IMG/VR virus record: IMGVR_UViG_3300045789_000882
Span: 1 to 37,204 of that record
DNA from: a virus
Length of the DNA: 37,204 nucleotides
Reading direction: 5' to 3' (one strand)
The translations under genes were made by a program, and so were the position numbers. This document shows positions 421 to 37,204 of the stretch, in pieces. Positions within the stretch are counted from its first letter, which is position 1. Each line of letters begins with the position of its first letter. Under the pieces are notes generated by a model. That model was not told the origin of the DNA and searched no databases. It saw only the letters and a list, made by a program, of their open reading frames with translations.

Positions 421-816
421 ATGAAAAAGGAATATCACTTAAGTGAACAGCCAATACCTGATGATTTCCAGATATTTGAAGATCGATTAGATATTGCAGG
501 AATTCAGCATAGAAAAATAGATGCTGTTAAATTCATTTCATCTAAAGAACAGTGGCTTGAATTTGAAAGAGATGAAAAGAATAAGTTCGACCTGAATGCT
601 ATTAAAGTTAAAGGTTGTACGAAAGGACTATTTGGAACTAAGAAACGATTTGTTGGTTTTGTTCCGTCAGATGTAGCATCTAGAATAGTATATTTTGGTA
701 TTGAAGAGTGTAAGCCAAGACTATTAAAGACATATTTAGGCGACTCAGGCTTCGTTGAAATAAAATTTCAAGTTATAGGCCCTAAAGGAAAGAAAAAGGA
801 TTACCAAAATTCATAA
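421..816 (+). CDS. HIRAN-domain-like protein, integron cassette gene
   Basis: The 131-residue product resembles a stand-alone HIRAN domain. It has a 'DIAGIQHR' strand near residue 24, an acidic turn with 'NKFDLNAIKV' near residues 57-66 (HIRAN domains usually have an N-x-x-D-x-N-A-[IV]-x-V core), a glycine-rich 'VGFVPSDVA' strand near 78-86, and a basic tail. HIRAN domains in HLTF/Rad5-type proteins bind 3' single-stranded DNA ends; in bacteria they occur alone or fused to nucleases and helicases. A DNA-binding or repair-linked role is therefore inferred, not shown. The gene starts 16 bases after the first attC core and its stop overlaps the R'' box of the second attC. Confidence 0.68.
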   Translation: MKKEYHLSEQPIPDDFQIFEDRLDIAGIQHRKIDAVKFISSKEQWLEFERDEKNKFDLNAIKVKGCTKGLFGTKKRFVGFVPSDVASRIVYFGIEECKPRLLKTYLGDSGFVEIKFQVIGPKGKKKDYQNS

Positions 817-28807: not shown

Positions 28808-29464
28808 ATGAATACATTTGGCGAGCGACTTCGTGCTGCACTTAAAAGCGCAGGCATGACACAAAAGCAGTTAGCAGAAGAGTTGAGCGTTACTCAACAA
28901 AGCATCCAAATAGCCTGCTCACCTAAAGCGAAAGGCAGCAAGCATGCATTCAAGATGGCAGAAATTCTCGGCATCAACCCAGGATGGCTAAGCCATGGCG
29001 TTGGCGAGCTTAAATTAAAGTCACCTAATGCAGCTCAAAGAGCAGAGTGGATTCTCGCGATGGAGGAAGATAAGACCACGAATGACGTATTGTTCTTCCA
29101 AATGGATGAGGTTGCTGAAATGGAGAACAGCACTAGTTCTATATTGATTGCCTGCCCAGCACCACACAGTAAAATGACTTACGCAACAAGAGTTAAAGAT
29201 AACACCATGACGTCTCAATACGGGCGTAGTTATCCAGAGGACTGTATTATTTTTGTTGATCCAGAGCGAGCCAAAGAAGCAAAGAATGGCGACAGAGTCA
29301 TCGCCCTAATAGATGGGGAAAATGGACAAAAAATACCCACGTTCAAACAATATGGTGACGCTGATGGACAACGCTACCTGCAATCAATCAATCCACAATA
29401 TCCAATCATAACAAAGCCTTTTGAAGTAATTGGTCTTGTTATCGGCATGTGGATACCAGAGTAA
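28808..29464 (+). CDS. CI-like prophage repressor with S24-type C-terminal domain
   Basis: The 218-residue repressor has an N-terminal helix-turn-helix ('MTQKQLAEELSVTQQSIQIA', residues 17-36) and a LexA/CI-like C-terminal domain (about 112-216). The usual nucleophile motif G-D-S-M is D131-N132-T133-M134, so the serine is a threonine (ACC at 29204-29206). The general base Lys180 in 'PTFKQY' is conserved. No Ala-Gly cleavage dipeptide is found in the linker (residues 70-115). The lysogen is probably kept by this protein, but RecA-driven self-cleavage looks unlikely. It is divergent from the Cro-like gene and is followed by a weak hairpin. Confidence 0.88.
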   Translation: MNTFGERLRAALKSAGMTQKQLAEELSVTQQSIQIACSPKAKGSKHAFKMAEILGINPGWLSHGVGELKLKSPNAAQRAEWILAMEEDKTTNDVLFFQMDEVAEMENSTSSILIACPAPHSKMTYATRVKDNTMTSQYGRSYPEDCIIFVDPERAKEAKNGDRVIALIDGENGQKIPTFKQYGDADGQRYLQSINPQYPIITKPFEVIGLVIGMWIPE

Positions 29465-29522: not shown

Positions 29523-30170
29523 TCATACCTGAGCGGCTTTGGCTTTTAATGCAGACCGCATAGAATCGATCCAGTGCTTCTCAGACACTATCCGTAGCGG
29601 CTTTGCCTTCTCATCCCTATATTTCATCGCTTTAATGATTTTATTTCCATAACTTTGACACTTCCAATCTTGCGTCACCTTATGACCAATCACTAAATAA
29701 TCGAGCTTCATTGTAATATTTTTAGACTGCACTCCCCCGAAACGCTGCACCATATCAACACAGTCGCTGCGCGTGCCCATCGAAAACACCCCAGTAAAAC
29801 AAAAAGATTGATCTGCAAAGTCAATATCAGGCATAGGATCACACAAGGGTAAAGTCGTAGCCGCCTGAGCCTGAGCTTTATCTGCTGAAGGACAACCAGT
29901 ATACGTTGAAAGCAACCTCAACAATTGCAACGCCTCAGCACTATCCATTACGCCATCGGCCAAAATATGTTTTAACTTCCAATGAATATCACCAATTAAC
30001 GGGTCATCACTATCAAGCTCCGGTCTAGCGCCTAACCAATCAAGTAAGAATTCAGCCTCAGCCTGATTCACCTCGCCATCAGATAGCATCCCCAGACACA
30101 GCCCAAAAAATGAATCTGCGTCACGCCTCAGCAACCGACGACCGTGAAATTTCACCGTATCAATACCCAT
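29523..30170 (-). CDS. BRCT-domain protein with TerB-like N-terminus
   Basis: The 215-residue protein has a C-terminal BRCT domain (about 119-204): 'SFCFTGVF' at 122-129, the paired glycines G145-G146, 'DYLVIG' at 157-162 and Trp200. The order matches BRCT domains of NAD-dependent DNA ligases. The N-terminal half has 'FFGLCLGMLSDGEVNQAEAEFLLDWL' and 'ILADGVMDSAEALQLLRLL', two acidic D-G-x-x-x-x-x-E helices that recall TerB-like repeats. Such proteins occur in prophages and may bind DNA ends or phosphopeptides; the substrate is unknown. It lies on the opposite strand between the repressor and the early operon, as a likely single-gene accessory unit. Confidence 0.78.
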   Translation of the reverse strand: MGIDTVKFHGRRLLRRDADSFFGLCLGMLSDGEVNQAEAEFLLDWLGARPELDSDDPLIGDIHWKLKHILADGVMDSAEALQLLRLLSTYTGCPSADKAQAQAATTLPLCDPMPDIDFADQSFCFTGVFSMGTRSDCVDMVQRFGGVQSKNITMKLDYLVIGHKVTQDWKCQSYGNKIIKAMKYRDEKAKPLRIVSEKHWIDSMRSALKAKAAQV

Positions 30171-31572: not shown

Positions 31573-32484
31573 ATGAATAAGATTCTCATAGCAAAAGTTT
31601 GCGGTAGCACCTTTGCCACAATCTCAATCTATTGCAGCGCCCTGCTTTGGTGGTCTTTTGCTGAATCGACCATCGATAAAATCATTGCTGCAGCAATTGG
31701 GGCAGGTTTCGTCGCCTGCCAGTATTTGTTTCATGCAAACCGCAACTACATAGCGACGACCGTATTATTCATCATAAGCGCAGCCGCCACGATTGGCTGG
31801 ATTGAATCACGATATGACGCAATCAAAACTACTGAACTGACCAGCGATTCCAGCTACAGCGAAAAAACCAAAACGCTGACCGAACTCAATAATACCCTGG
31901 CACTGCAAAACCTCAGCGCCAAGAACGACCTAGCCAACACCACCATCAACTTTACAGGTCGAGCTAACCGAACACTGGCCAAAGCCAATCAAACTCAAGA
32001 CGCAATAAAGCAGCTTGAATCTGAAATTGAACACCTTCAAAACGCCAACCCAAGCAACCAGAAATCAGGCTCAGCAATCGCTAATCAATTAGCCGAATGG
32101 CGCTGGTTACTGTGGGTATTACTAGCAGCAATGATCGACATTATTCCGATGATTTGTTTCAAAATTGCAACGACCGAAACGCTTATTGAAACGTTACAGC
32201 CACCGTTGCAAAAATCGCTACAGCCCAGTTCGCAACTGGGTGCAACGGCCGAAACGCAAACCGAAACAACCGACCCACTCCTGCAGATATTGAAGCAAGA
32301 AATCACCAATAACGAATGGGGTGAAACGATCCCAATGAAACGAATCATGGCCAAACACAACGCACGTCACGAACGCCTAAAGCCGATATTTGAGCAGCTA
32401 ATTGAAAGCAAAATAATTGAGCGTCAAGGCAACCGATACATCAACACACAAACACAAACCAAGGTTCAGGAGCAGACAGCATGA
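31573..32484 (+). CDS. Membrane protein with coiled coil and winged-helix-like C-terminus
   Basis: The 303-residue protein has hydrophobic helices at about 8-29, 33-54, 60-77 and 177-198. Residues 80-160 between helices three and four are strongly helical and charged, probably a coiled coil. After helix four a Q/T/S-rich linker (200-234) leads to a domain at 235-290 ('LLQILKQEI', 'IPMKRIMAKHNARHERLKPIFEQLIESKIIERQGNRYI' pattern) resembling a winged helix-turn-helix. With three helices before the coil and one after, coil and C-terminus lie on opposite sides. AAAGG precedes the ATG. Possible roles are membrane-linked regulation or superinfection exclusion; neither is shown. Confidence 0.7.
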   Translation: MNKILIAKVCGSTFATISIYCSALLWWSFAESTIDKIIAAAIGAGFVACQYLFHANRNYIATTVLFIISAAATIGWIESRYDAIKTTELTSDSSYSEKTKTLTELNNTLALQNLSAKNDLANTTINFTGRANRTLAKANQTQDAIKQLESEIEHLQNANPSNQKSGSAIANQLAEWRWLLWVLLAAMIDIIPMICFKIATTETLIETLQPPLQKSLQPSSQLGATAETQTETTDPLLQILKQEITNNEWGETIPMKRIMAKHNARHERLKPIFEQLIESKIIERQGNRYINTQTQTKVQEQTA

Positions 32485-32747
32485 ATACCTTATTCCTAGT
32501 AATGGCTCAGTTTGAATCTGTAGAGATTCCGCTAGATAAGCTATGCGATCAGTTCGGACTTGGCCTACCACAAGCCAAGCGAAAAGCAGCTTTGCATGAA
32601 CTCCCTGTGCCTTTTTATAAGAAAACTTCCAAAGGCGGTTACTTCTGCAGCGCCAAACTCTGGGCCGAATACCTAGACACCAAATCAGCAGCAGCTCAAA
32701 TCGAGTGGCAAAAAATGAACAAATACAATCAAGGAGCTAGAGCATGA
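32481..32747 (+). CDS. PrtN-like pyocin-activator family DNA-binding protein
   Basis: The 88-residue protein matches the PrtN family pattern: 'TLFLVMAQFESVEIPLDKLCDQFGL' near the start, 'AKRKAALHELPVPFYKK' in the middle, then 'LWAEYLDTKSAAAQIEWQKMN'. In Pseudomonas, PrtN activates pyocin genes after the repressor PrtR is removed. Members of this family are also found in early operons of many proteobacterial prophages. Here it probably activates phage promoters or helps excision. It overlaps both neighbours by ATGA-type junctions, so it is coupled to the membrane protein upstream. Confidence 0.82.
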   Translation: MNTLFLVMAQFESVEIPLDKLCDQFGLGLPQAKRKAALHELPVPFYKKTSKGGYFCSAKLWAEYLDTKSAAAQIEWQKMNKYNQGARA

Positions 32748-33434: not shown

Positions 33435-33665
33435 ATGTCCGATAAAGATTATAACGTTTACCAGGATAGTGATGGCAGCTGGAAAGGCAAGCGCCAAGAT
33501 GCTAGCCGAGCTAGTGTCAGCGCGCCCACTCAACAAGAAGCATTTGAAAAAACTAGAGAGCTAGCTAAAAAGGCTCAATCTGAGGTTTCTATTCATCGAG
33601 GTGATAATGGAAAGATCAGAGATAAGCACAGTTATGGGAATGATCCGAAAGGGACAAAAGGCTAA
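33435..33665 (+). CDS. DUF2188 protein
   Basis: The 76-residue protein fits DUF2188: 'YNVYQDSDGSWKGKRQDASRAS' region, then 'SAPTQQEAFEKTRELAKKAQSEVSIHRGDNGKI' pattern, ending in a charged G-N-D-P tail. These small proteins have conserved W, G and H-x-x-D-G-K-I positions and unknown function; they occur widely in bacteria and mobile elements. The ribosome binding site is weak (GAGAAT), and the gene stands apart from the early operon behind a structured leader, so it may be a separately controlled accessory gene. Confidence 0.78.
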   Translation: MSDKDYNVYQDSDGSWKGKRQDASRASVSAPTQQEAFEKTRELAKKAQSEVSIHRGDNGKIRDKHSYGNDPKGTKG

Positions 33666-33728: not shown

Positions 33729-34331
33729 CTATACGGGCATCCTTCGTATATCTTTTTGAAAGCACTCCACCAACAACTCTCTCCGTAAACTATTAAGATT
33801 CTTCTTTCTTATCTTATTATGATATCTATCATCAAATCCTGAAATCACACATGCATCCGCGTGATAAGTGGCACTAGGTATTGCTGAATCATACACACCC
33901 GCAAACTGAACATCGGGCAAGTCTTGCCCATCCCTCAGCGACCTCAACTCTCCGACATTTGCTACAGCAAAGCCAATATATTCTCTTTCTTTGCCTTTAT
34001 TATTAAGATCACTTTTCCAGTCGTCATACATTTTCCTCACAAGCTGAAACACATACTCATCAGAATCTAGAAACTTTAATCGATTTACTGACAACCCCTT
34101 ATTAAGCACATCATCCACCGCCATCGATGTAAGCTCATTCCCGTCTAGATTATACATGTACGGTGAATGTAGCACTCTAGCGATTAACTCATCACTCTCA
34201 ACAACACCAGGAGACAGCTCAGGGGACATTGATTCGCACTCTGCCTTTAGAGCTTTATCGTGATCTTTCGTTAACTCTTCTACTTTATTATTAACATCTT
34301 CCGACTGAAAGAGTTGCTTTAATACTTCCAT
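33729..34331 (-). CDS. Third gene of a three-gene accessory module, unknown
   Basis: The 200-residue protein is unrecognised. The N-terminal half is acidic and helical (about 1-60). The C-terminal half shows a repeating strand-helix pattern, with 'YIGFAVANVGELRSLRDG' (about 118-135), 'VQFAGVYDSAIPSATYHADACVI' segment (141-163) and 'KKNLNSLRRELLVECF' near the end. The Y-D-S...Y-H-A-D run is the most conserved-looking part and could be a ligand or catalytic site. AGGAA precedes the ATG. It lies 12 bases after the WDG-motif gene and ends the transcript. Its place suggests it works with the two upstream gene products. Confidence 0.68.
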   Translation of the reverse strand: MEVLKQLFQSEDVNNKVEELTKDHDKALKAECESMSPELSPGVVESDELIARVLHSPYMYNLDGNELTSMAVDDVLNKGLSVNRLKFLDSDEYVFQLVRKMYDDWKSDLNNKGKEREYIGFAVANVGELRSLRDGQDLPDVQFAGVYDSAIPSATYHADACVISGFDDRYHNKIRKKNLNSLRRELLVECFQKDIRRMPV

Positions 34332-34343
34332 GTAAATAAGTTC

Positions 34344-35051
34344 CTATCGACAGGCCAAACCCGGCGAATACATTTCCATATCCAAAAACAATCCTCCGTC
34401 GAAAAAACTACCAGAACCCTCCCTCTCCGGAAAAGTCTTGTCGTCTAAAAAACTATCCAAAGCAGCGCGCTTTTTAACCACACCAACTTGGGTTTTTTGC
34501 TTCCTAGGGCTTAGCCTATCTATTAACGATTTTAAATCTTGATGAATACCAGAAGCTACTGTTAATTCTTCAGCAAAAAAATTCCTACCATCTTTAGTTT
34601 TTGCAAAGTAGCTGTACTCACCAGGCCCATCAATCGTTACTTCAGCAAAAATACCGTTTTTTCGCCAATAAAGACCAATCTCACCATCAGATGAAATTGC
34701 CGGATCAGGAACAGCAAAACCAGATAAAACAATCTCTTCGAACAAAACAGATAAGTTATCAATCAAAACTAGATCAGGCACAGCTCCAACCTCCCCATCC
34801 CACCCAGCCTGCAATGTTTTATACTCACCCAATCTCGCACGAAAGGCCGCTATTTTTTTTCTATCTCGACTAGCTACCTTCTGCGATTCTGCCAAAACTG
34901 TATCAATATAATGGTCAACCACATCTGCACTCTTCGCATGCAGTTGCGAATCTCGATTTAAATAGGAAATTTGAATTGACGAAGCAGCTTGCACTGGCAC
35001 ACCAGAAGCGACACACGCTGAAAATATCACAGAAATAGCCTTTACTGACAT
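34344..35051 (-). CDS. Second gene of the module: WDG-motif protein with signal-like N-terminus
   Basis: The 235-residue protein starts with a hydrophobic run ending in 'VQAASS' (residues 1-25) that could be a signal peptide or a buried helix. The core has 'EYKTLQAGWDGEVGAVPDLVL' segments with W84-D85-G86, then 'SGFAVPDPAISSDGEIGLYWR' and 'YSYFAKTKDG', a pattern known from uncharacterised proteins that occur beside TIGR04255-type genes. The C-terminus is basic then acidic. The start overlaps the upstream stop by one base (TAATG) with GGAGG ideally placed, so the two are strongly coupled. Confidence 0.68.
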   Translation of the reverse strand: MSVKAISVIFSACVASGVPVQAASSIQISYLNRDSQLHAKSADVVDHYIDTVLAESQKVASRDRKKIAAFRARLGEYKTLQAGWDGEVGAVPDLVLIDNLSVLFEEIVLSGFAVPDPAISSDGEIGLYWRKNGIFAEVTIDGPGEYSYFAKTKDGRNFFAEELTVASGIHQDLKSLIDRLSPRKQKTQVGVVKKRAALDSFLDDKTFPEREGSGSFFDGGLFLDMEMYSPGLACR

Positions 35052-35836
35052 TACTTAGCCTCCATATTAATATCTTTGAGAACCTCTAAAGTTAAGATAT
35101 CTCTAATCAACTCCACATTCTCAGAATGCATCCTATCCATCACATCACGTACACTACTGAGAACACCATCACCACCTAAAGATAAGTCACTTTCTTCAGG
35201 AAGATTAAGACGATGTTGCATCGCGACAACTTGCAAATATTTTTTTTCTGTATTTTGAATACAATCCATCCGTACGCGGTTTAGAATATTTCCAGCATAA
35301 AACCCTGTATGAGCATGCCATAATCCACTCTGAGAGAATATATAGCCAGGCAGGTACTTTGAGTCCTTATTAAACAATGCCTCGACCCAATTAGTATTTA
35401 TATCCTTAATATAAAATTCATCTAGATACTCTAAACCCAGAGCTTTGATTTTCAGAGGCTCTGCAGTTTTCTCAAGAAAAGAAATAAAGAATGCCCATGC
35501 GCTCATCACAAAACCAATAGATTCATCCCAACCTATATAATCGGTACATTGTAGAACCAGGATATTATCTTTAAATGATAGAGTCCAACCGCTGTCGTTC
35601 TTTAGAACGACACCATGAACCTCTTGACTTCTAGACATAGACTCAGCGGATTCATTAGTATTAATTTGAATACTAAAACCTTCCAGAAGCTCACTAGCAG
35701 TAAATAATTCGTTTTTTTCTGCATTCACATACGCATTGAATGATCTAAATACATCAGGGGAACAAACAGTAGCAAATTCAACCGCAAAAGCAGCCACTTT
35801 GATCGCATTATTCTGATTACATTTCTCTACGAGCAC
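35051..35836 (-). CDS. First gene of the module: TIGR04255-like protein
   Basis: GTG at 35836 with AAAGGA seven bases upstream is chosen over an in-frame TTG at 35842 that lies too near that site. The product is 261 residues. It follows the TIGR04255 plan: a strand-rich opening, 'GWTLSFKDNILVLQCTDYIGW' region (about 85-105), a helix, then 'IKALGLEYLDEFYI' (about 133-146), comparable to the family's R-x-G-L-R-Y-x-N run, and a C-terminal 'MHSENVELIRDILTLEVLK'. TIGR04255 proteins are patchily distributed and of unknown function, often with two small partners. It heads a three-gene operon next to the integrase. Confidence 0.7.
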   Translation of the reverse strand: MLVEKCNQNNAIKVAAFAVEFATVCSPDVFRSFNAYVNAEKNELFTASELLEGFSIQINTNESAESMSRSQEVHGVVLKNDSGWTLSFKDNILVLQCTDYIGWDESIGFVMSAWAFFISFLEKTAEPLKIKALGLEYLDEFYIKDINTNWVEALFNKDSKYLPGYIFSQSGLWHAHTGFYAGNILNRVRMDCIQNTEKKYLQVVAMQHRLNLPEESDLSLGGDGVLSSVRDVMDRMHSENVELIRDILTLEVLKDINMEAK

Positions 35837-35970
35837 TATCAATTCCTTTATCCAATACGATCAGCACAACAGTTAACATCCCTACCACCGCTAGATGTAA
35901 AATGACAGGTGAGTCAAGGCAAGTCAACTACGAAGATTACGACCCAATACAATTATATTAGTTCAATATT

Positions 35971-36004
35971 CTATGCGTGCACAGCTAGTTTTGAGCGCGC
36001 ATAG
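35971..36004. repeat. Inverted repeat downstream of the integrase gene
   Basis: CTATGCGTGC (35971-35980) and GCGCGCATAG (35995-36004) pair with one mismatch around a 14-base loop. A third related copy, TATGCACG, follows at about 36013-36020. The element lies in the 207-base gap between the integrase stop and the three-gene module. It may be a terminator without a T-run, an arm-type integrase or excisionase site, or part of the attachment region. Confidence 0.5.
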
Positions 36005-36043
36005 TATATAGGTATGCACGATTTTAGCAAACCGACGTCAAAC

Positions 36044-37204
36044 TCACCTACACACTTTATCAGCCCACGCCCAACTCGCCCACTTATTATTAGGCTCAAT
36101 ATTCTCAATCTGCGTATATCTTTTCAATGACTCCCAAGACTGATGTCCCGTCACAGCAGCCACTCGCGCAACATCCCAACGCTCACCATTCAACCCATCT
36201 CGCTCAAACAGCCAAGATGGGCATTCATGGCGAAGATCATGAAAACGTACATTATCACCATCTGGATTGTAATTACCGCATTCTTTCCATAGCTGTCTAA
36301 AGCGATCACCCAAAGTTTTATGAAAGTACGGAAACCAGTTATCTGGCATATCTTCATTCACCGGCATTGATAGCATTACGTCCCAGGCTTCATCAGGTAT
36401 CAGTACCCAAACATCATTCCCTATCTTCTTAGTTGGGTGCTTCATGTCAGGAATAAGAACACGCTTACGCTCGTAATCGGTATTCGATCGCAGCATACGG
36501 CTAAACTCGCCCTGCCTTCTAGAAGAGAACATCGCAAACACAATGATCTTATCCATTGGGATAATGTCTTTACGTGACTTGTTTGATTCTGCCCACTTTA
36601 ACCGGCGACTGTGTGCCAGGGAAACAACCTTAGTCATTTGCTCTACCGTGGGCCGAAGATCACGACTACCTGCCTTCGATATTATGCCCAGCTTCGACAT
36701 CGTGCGTTGTGCAATATCAATCTGAGAGTAATCAACCTCACAGCGTAACAATTCAGTGGCCACGCCAAACACACCTTTTATATAGATATAGTGCTGCATG
36801 GTTGTTGAAGACGAGCTGCGTTCATTCCATTTACGGCAATGAGTAATAATATCCGACGCCTTAACTGTAGACGCAGCTAACTGACCAAATTCTGAATTTT
36901 TGATCTGCTTTAGCGTATCTGTTTTAGATCGTCCCCAGGGCTTCAAGGGGAATACCTCGGCAAAATAACGATCAATCAATTCACCAACCGTCATGCTATT
37001 TGATTCTAATCCCGAAATGGCTCGTTCTAGCGCACCCAGCTCAGACAGCTGCGCCTCACGCCTAGCTGCCCAAACCTCAGCCAGTTTCTTCTTTGGGAAT
37101 GTTTCACTTTCGGTATAAACCATCTTACCTTTACGCTTGTAGCGTAAATAAGCTGTATAACTGAACGAGCCATCCGCCCTCTCTCTTTTTCTAAAGCTCG
37201 CCAT
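36044..37204 (-). CDS. int: Tyrosine recombinase integrase
   Basis: The 386-residue enzyme has a basic N-terminal arm-binding region ('SFRKRERADGSFSYTAYLRYKRKGK' segment), a core-binding domain (about 70-165) and a catalytic domain with Arg230 in 'SSRRQGEFSRML', a beta-hairpin Lys255, His322-x-x-Arg325 in 'FHDLRHE', His354 in 'TGHQSW' and the nucleophile Tyr363 in 'KRYTQI'. All catalytic residues are present. The window ends exactly at its ATG, so its promoter cannot be seen. The gene reads leftward toward the three-gene module. It catalyses phage integration and, with an excisionase, excision. Confidence 0.96.
   Translation of the reverse strand: MASFRKRERADGSFSYTAYLRYKRKGKMVYTESETFPKKKLAEVWAARREAQLSELGALERAISGLESNSMTVGELIDRYFAEVFPLKPWGRSKTDTLKQIKNSEFGQLAASTVKASDIITHCRKWNERSSSSTTMQHYIYIKGVFGVATELLRCEVDYSQIDIAQRTMSKLGIISKAGSRDLRPTVEQMTKVVSLAHSRRLKWAESNKSRKDIIPMDKIIVFAMFSSRRQGEFSRMLRSNTDYERKRVLIPDMKHPTKKIGNDVWVLIPDEAWDVMLSMPVNEDMPDNWFPYFHKTLGDRFRQLWKECGNYNPDGDNVRFHDLRHECPSWLFERDGLNGERWDVARVAAVTGHQSWESLKRYTQIENIEPNNKWASWAWADKVCR

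Follow-up and report, generated by a model that had tools for sequence, protein, structure and literature searches.

The question raised by this locus is whether three small, tightly coupled genes lodged beside the integrase of a prophage-like virus form a functional unit and, if so, what such a unit would do for the phage that carries it. The virus record analysed, 37,204 bases long and referred to here as the window, has a prophage-like gene content, in which terminase, portal, protease, capsid and tail genes were recognised by eye on the minus strand, together with a CI-like repressor gene (positions 28808-29464).

Layout of the locus and its phage relatives

The trio is bracketed by a DUF2188 gene (33435-33665, plus strand; PF09954, E 2.5e-19) and a tyrosine integrase gene (36044-37204, minus strand; PF00589, E 5.6e-8), a placement already proposed by a first-pass annotation of the sequence and borne out by these matches. 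All three genes lie on the minus strand: gene 1 (35051-35842) encodes a TIGR04255 family protein, gene 2 (34344-35051) a GWDG protein of 235 aa, and gene 3 (33729-34331) a protein of 200 aa named here the R-S-H protein. As previously described, and as confirmed by the open reading frame coordinates, genes 1 and 2 have one base in common (TAATG) and genes 2 and 3 are separated by a 12-base spacer (34332-34343). The longest frame of gene 1 opens at TTG 35842 and gives 263 aa, but the GTG at 35836, which gives the 261 codons originally assigned, is a reasonable start because AAAGGA lies 7 nt upstream. The leader between the integrase gene and gene 1 (35843-36043, minus strand) shows in a two-phage alignment long blocks identical to those of the phage relative L003, such as GAACTAATATAATTGTATTGGGTC, and could contain an attachment site or a promoter; a search of this leader found no strong sigma-70 consensus, with a promoter scan that hardly exceeded shuffled sequence, and the promoter and terminator scans of the locus were uninformative.

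Other genes of the window deserve a brief mention. A 131-aa protein encoded at 421-816 (plus strand) has a C-terminal half that looks HIRAN-like by eye (NAIKV...GFVPSDVA), a Pyocin activator PrtN family protein is encoded at 32481-32747 (plus strand; PF11112, E 4.9e-8; PHROG excisionase 1300, E 4.4e-14; 74% identical to its relative in L003), and a BRCT-domain protein, unusual for a phage, sits beside the repressor at 29523-30170 (minus strand; PF00533, E 5.3e-6; phrog_3989, E 8e-52).

The first gene had been assigned to TIGR04255 from the sequence alone, and residues 11-177 of its product do match that NCBIfam model with 49.4 bits (E 5.2e-13), above the curated cut-off of 30. The family is recorded as sporadically distributed and of unknown role; its entry is silent on partners, whereas in units of the window type it is tied to genes 2 and 3, and a full-text literature search for TIGR04255 found no paper. 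In Pfam, gene 1 also scored weakly (E 8e-4) against the receptor-binding domain of a clostridial neurotoxin, under the cut-off of that model; this match had no other support and was dismissed as chance. On the other hand, genes 2 and 3 gave no convincing match in Pfam, NCBIfam or PHROG, profiles of Pfam and of solved structures returned nothing credible for the trio proteins, and none of the three genes reached the cut-off of a toxin or antitoxin domain in Pfam, NCBIfam, PHROG or PADLOC. Neither the proteins of genes 1 and 3 nor gene 2 of one relative found a match among annotated phages and plasmids, and viral contigs scanned with gene 2 or gene 3 as single proteins likewise gave nothing.

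When viral contigs were searched with gene 1, they yielded the phage relative L003, which keeps the order integrase, gene 1, gene 2, gene 3. Identity between the two phages amounts to 90% for the integrase, 70% for gene 1, 43% for gene 2, 49% for gene 3 and about 74% for two flanking genes on the far side, so genes 2 and 3 diverge much faster than their surroundings. No DUF2188 gene stands between gene 3 and the flanking genes of L003, and this gene is therefore not considered part of the unit. The last viral scan found genes 2 and 3 behind a TIGR04255 relative in four out of four cases, and the unit is now seen in seven phage contigs including the window, at sites as different as the vicinity of integrases, the inside of tail clusters and the neighbourhood of a terminase. 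With neighbours judged by eye, the trio lies near a terminase-like gene in L241, with an NlpC-like tail gene on one side and a tail-tip-like one on the other in L242, near a serine recombinase gene in L244 (where the gene 2 frame is possibly disturbed at its 5′ end) and within tail-fibre and holin-like genes in L245; L246 is a further phage contig with the trio. These varied sites lie in several unrelated phages.

The W-D-G motif noticed at first sight in gene 2 holds as part of a GWDG motif (W84-D85), and the hydrophobic N-terminus noticed with it is only borderline in the window (mean Kyte-Doolittle value 1.69) and in L003 (1.46); the segment is missing in the phage relatives L241, L242, L245 and L246. 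This segment could act as a membrane anchor if the unit served an envelope function, either lysogenic conversion or superinfection exclusion, as its prophage location would allow; with the segment absent from four phage relatives and the unit widespread outside prophages, such a function has little probability.

Recurrence across bacterial genomes

A search for TIGR04255 was positive in 34 of 369 gammaproteobacterial, 26 of 250 burkholderialean, 16 of 240 alphaproteobacterial and 3 of 12 other genomes; the family is present in 7-10% of the proteobacterial genomes sampled. Hidden Markov models for genes 2 and 3, seeded from the window and L003 only, were iterated over the 721 open reading frames of 83 TIGR04255 loci with a threshold of 1e-3 for gene 2 and a looser one of 0.02 for gene 3, so that the position of a match offers an independent check. 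The models converged on 34 gene 2 and 33 gene 3 matches among the 721 frames, every one of them directly downstream of gene 1. Co-occurrence, on which the first-pass annotation had made its case for a unit depend, was found in 32 of the 83 loci, distributed over Gamma-, Beta- and Alphaproteobacteria, Bacteroidota and Cyanobacteria, and the trio is also present in two TIGR04255 loci outside the training set (L186 and L210). Comparing window gene 3 with the subfamilies through thin profiles of two sequences proved uninformative, and hold-out models built without the window and L003 were used instead; these retrieved gene 2 (E 4.2e-18) and gene 3 (E 2.2e-8) among 171 open reading frames.

The reverse test, carried out on the 369 Gammaproteobacteria, gave 19 matches to the gene 2 model, 13 of which adjoin TIGR04255, and 15 matches to the gene 3 model, of which 14 adjoin a gene 2 domain. 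The fifteenth (L257/L262, genome G230) is a bacterial gene close to window gene 3, with integrase fragments alongside; the contig ends there and leaves its upstream gene unreadable. It represents a phage unit of this same sort in a different host. Where TIGR04255 is absent, the first partners include a fused PDC-M32A protein in L234, one of 219 aa in L235 and, in the phage contig L240, a 247-aa protein. Since profile comparisons of these three alternatives with TIGR04255 demonstrated no relationship, they are not claimed to be homologous to it. Genes 2 and 3 are a core pair, almost always found together, with an exchangeable first component, which is TIGR04255 in the window and in most of the loci sampled and, elsewhere, the M32A N-terminal half or another protein. 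The order integrase, gene 1, gene 2, gene 3 kept in L003 and the wide recurrence of the trio place it beyond a chance arrangement.

The three genes also appear to travel as one. Across 39 units, the protein distances of genes 1, 2 and 3 are correlated (Spearman 0.32-0.37; the best of 1000 permutations reached 0.20), and close units span bacterial classes, as in the case of the gammaproteobacterial L118 with the alphaproteobacterial L162 and L164, which together imply joint transfer. The unit is sporadic, with a presence in about 4-5% of the sampled genomes. In 6 of 40 chromosomal regions (L174, L175, L176, L202, L204 and L209) a tRNA gene was found within 1 kb, in four of them no more than 300 bases away on the upstream side of gene 1, a placement in keeping with insertion next to tRNA genes. 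The original proposal of a mobile functional unit is well supported by its recurrence in many genomes and at unrelated positions of the phage contigs.

The surroundings of the chromosomal copies bear on what the unit might be. Tyrosine integrases within 10 kb accompany at least 2 of about 38 chromosomal copies, as compared to some 1.6 expected by our own estimate, and so no enrichment of integrases is apparent among the matches listed. A function of the phage itself, such as an integration step or the control of lysogeny, spreading by happenstance, would suit the integrase that adjoins the trio in the window and L003, the serine recombinase near it in L244 and the integrase found 0.8 kb away in genome G111; it fits poorly with most copies being chromosomal with no integrase near among the matches listed, and with the location inside tail clusters in the phages L242 and L245, and we regard it as very improbable. 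The 130 neighbours of chromosomal copies include few defence-like genes and are mostly ordinary metabolic genes. Hence the defence-island context looked for after the first inspection did not materialise, and a defence-island reading was rejected on the few defence neighbours and the lack of integrase enrichment among the matches listed. The metabolic neighbours could instead be taken as a sign of a housekeeping or metabolic enzyme unit outside any conflict; however, sporadic presence, transfer across classes, carriage by phages and the rapid divergence of genes 2 and 3 make this very improbable.

Kinship with PDC-M32 and the R-S-H protein

The closest described relative of the unit is PDC-M32, an entry of PADLOC that is itself only a candidate defence system and for which the literature searched contained no functional test. 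Window gene 2 gives a weak match to PDC-M32A (model positions 255-368, E 3.8e-5), which falls on the C-terminal GWDG domain of that protein, and 21 of 36 gene 2 proteins match it, the best with E 4.7e-12. Four of 34 gene 3 proteins match PDC-M32B (PDLC04579; best E 9.4e-5), with no direct match from window gene 3. The link is made by L234, a true pair of PDC-M32A and B (E 2.0e-49 and 1.9e-31) whose parts match, in turn, our gene 2 model (C-terminal domain, 1.8e-13) and our gene 3 model (partner, 1.3e-11). Gene 2 is equivalent to that C-terminal domain, and the gene 3 family appears to include PDC-M32B, with an equal gene order. As with the window unit, PDC-M32 occurs in prophages: L234 lies beside phage tail-like genes, and PDC-M32 has been reported in the Sinorhizobium (S. 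meliloti) prophage phiUSDA1157-039 (PMC12429752). In contrast to PDC-M32, where the A protein is whole, the window unit is split into three, a TIGR04255 protein replacing the N-terminal half of M32A (positions 1-250), which is absent from it. Gene 1 and 36 relatives did not match PDC-M32A, and a profile comparison of gene 1 with L234 recovered no relationship. Judging by these profile matches, the window unit is related to candidate PDC-M32 and split over three genes; it is not given that name because it fails the strict definition of M32A.

Among 43 gene 3 proteins that are only about 16% identical, the sole polar positions kept are an Arg (40/43), a Ser (41/43) and a His (43/43), which correspond to R52, S81 and H157 in window gene 3. 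The Y-D-S...Y-H-A-D region, which had looked conserved in the single sequence, is real and contains H157, a residue present in every family member. Three near-invariant polar residues across proteins so dissimilar suggest an active site, and gene 3 is proposed to encode a toxic enzyme.

Since the structure model of window gene 3 was poor (pLDDT 39), it was set aside and the relative from L241 was modelled instead, giving a confident prediction (pLDDT 91.9). Foldseek found no significant structural match for this model (TM-scores of 0.35-0.40, E about 0.5-3.5). Among the non-significant hits, RNA 2′-phosphotransferases appear at ranks 42 and 47 of the viral structure list, and these enzymes share the ADP-ribosyltransferase fold. 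The top PDB match, equally non-significant (PDB 1s21, E 0.55, TM 0.40), is the effector HopF2/AvrPphF ORF2, for which ADP-ribosyltransferase activity has been reported (PMC4263708). Like the ADP-ribosyltransferases of the R-S-E type, gene 3 has an Arg and a Ser preceding a later invariant residue; unlike the enzymes with R-S-E or H-Y-E triads, that third residue is a His and not a Glu, and there is no sequence similarity to them. An ADP-ribosyltransferase-like fold is a rather doubtful hint from predicted structures.

Sister operons and the proposed role

Other TIGR04255 operons carry different genes behind gene 1, with known toxins in third place: a Zeta_toxin in L147 and L148 (2.1e-10 and 4.4e-10) and a PIN protein in L097 and L108 (1.4e-8 and 1.1e-5), the one of L108 lying directly downstream of gene 1. 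These four loci have what is apparently an exchangeable toxin slot. They resemble toxin-antitoxin operons whose toxin is of the zeta (PF06414) or PIN (PF01850) family. The window unit differs from these in that gene 3 belongs to neither family and the trio holds no known antitoxin family. A second common operon (L091, L095, L096, L098, L106, L109 and others) combines a helix-turn-helix or hydrophobic middle protein with a WRQGD...CDI protein that lacks a Pfam family. In a third context (L092, L094, L125, L131 and L150), the downstream gene encodes a protein of about 220 aa with HIGI(L/A)Y-like motifs, perhaps papain-like, and two of these proteins that were scanned had no Pfam match. Many middle proteins, namely gene 2 of L129, L099, L102 and L246, as well as the middle proteins of L091, L096 and L148, also share in their N-terminal part a short (S/N)TG-S-like motif, noticed by eye, at which gene 1 might dock.

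By analogy with these sister operons, gene 3 may be regarded as the effector, gene 2 as a proposed adaptor or restraining subunit and gene 1 as a proposed recognition subunit, exchangeable among related units; the assignment of toxicity to one component and of restraint to another is a guess from that analogy. The reading we favour, at about even chances, is that the trio is one conserved mobile accessory operon composed of a recogniser, an adaptor or restraint and a toxic enzyme, serving the prophage as a defence or addiction unit. Gene 2 would keep gene 3 inactive and connect it to gene 1, which would free gene 3 on sensing a trigger such as part of an infecting phage. Once freed, gene 3, a toxic enzyme that would act through Arg52, Ser81 and His157 and perhaps have an ADP-ribosyltransferase-like fold, would halt the cell, and the prophage would benefit either from the protection of its lysogen or from its own retention.

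A conflict role, be it defence or addiction, seems likely from sequence and genomic context. The anti-phage or toxin-antidote nature put forward in the first-pass annotation is consistent with the kinship to PDC-M32, the zeta and PIN sister operons and the R-S-H triad, the activity as such being a prediction. A narrower version would make the trio a three-component toxin-antitoxin unit that retains the prophage, with gene 3 as toxin, gene 2 as antitoxin, gene 1 as regulator or chaperone, and any effect on phages secondary. The zeta-toxin and PIN families behind gene 1, the overlapping and tightly coupled genes of the trio and the helix-turn-helix in the middle gene of some sister operons all speak for addiction of this kind, but the many chromosomal sites of the unit need none, gene 2 has no known DNA-binding domain and no antitoxin-like family was found, which leaves it unlikely, if well short of negligible.

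Seen beyond the window, TIGR04255 proteins could provide recognition in a general sensor-adaptor-effector chassis. Its third slot would take a zeta, PIN or RQGD/CDI protein or an enzyme of the new R-S-H family, its R-S-H pair would also work with other sensors (the N-terminal half of PDC-M32A and others), and phages would carry it as cargo, a generalisation that we hold at somewhat under even chances. Three families without an assigned function, TIGR04255 and its two partners, would gain one testable role with the residues named, and a mobile unit would be tied to the listed candidate PDC-M32, with known toxins in its sister operons. Such a role would also account for the cargo found in the tail clusters and beside the integrases of unrelated phages.
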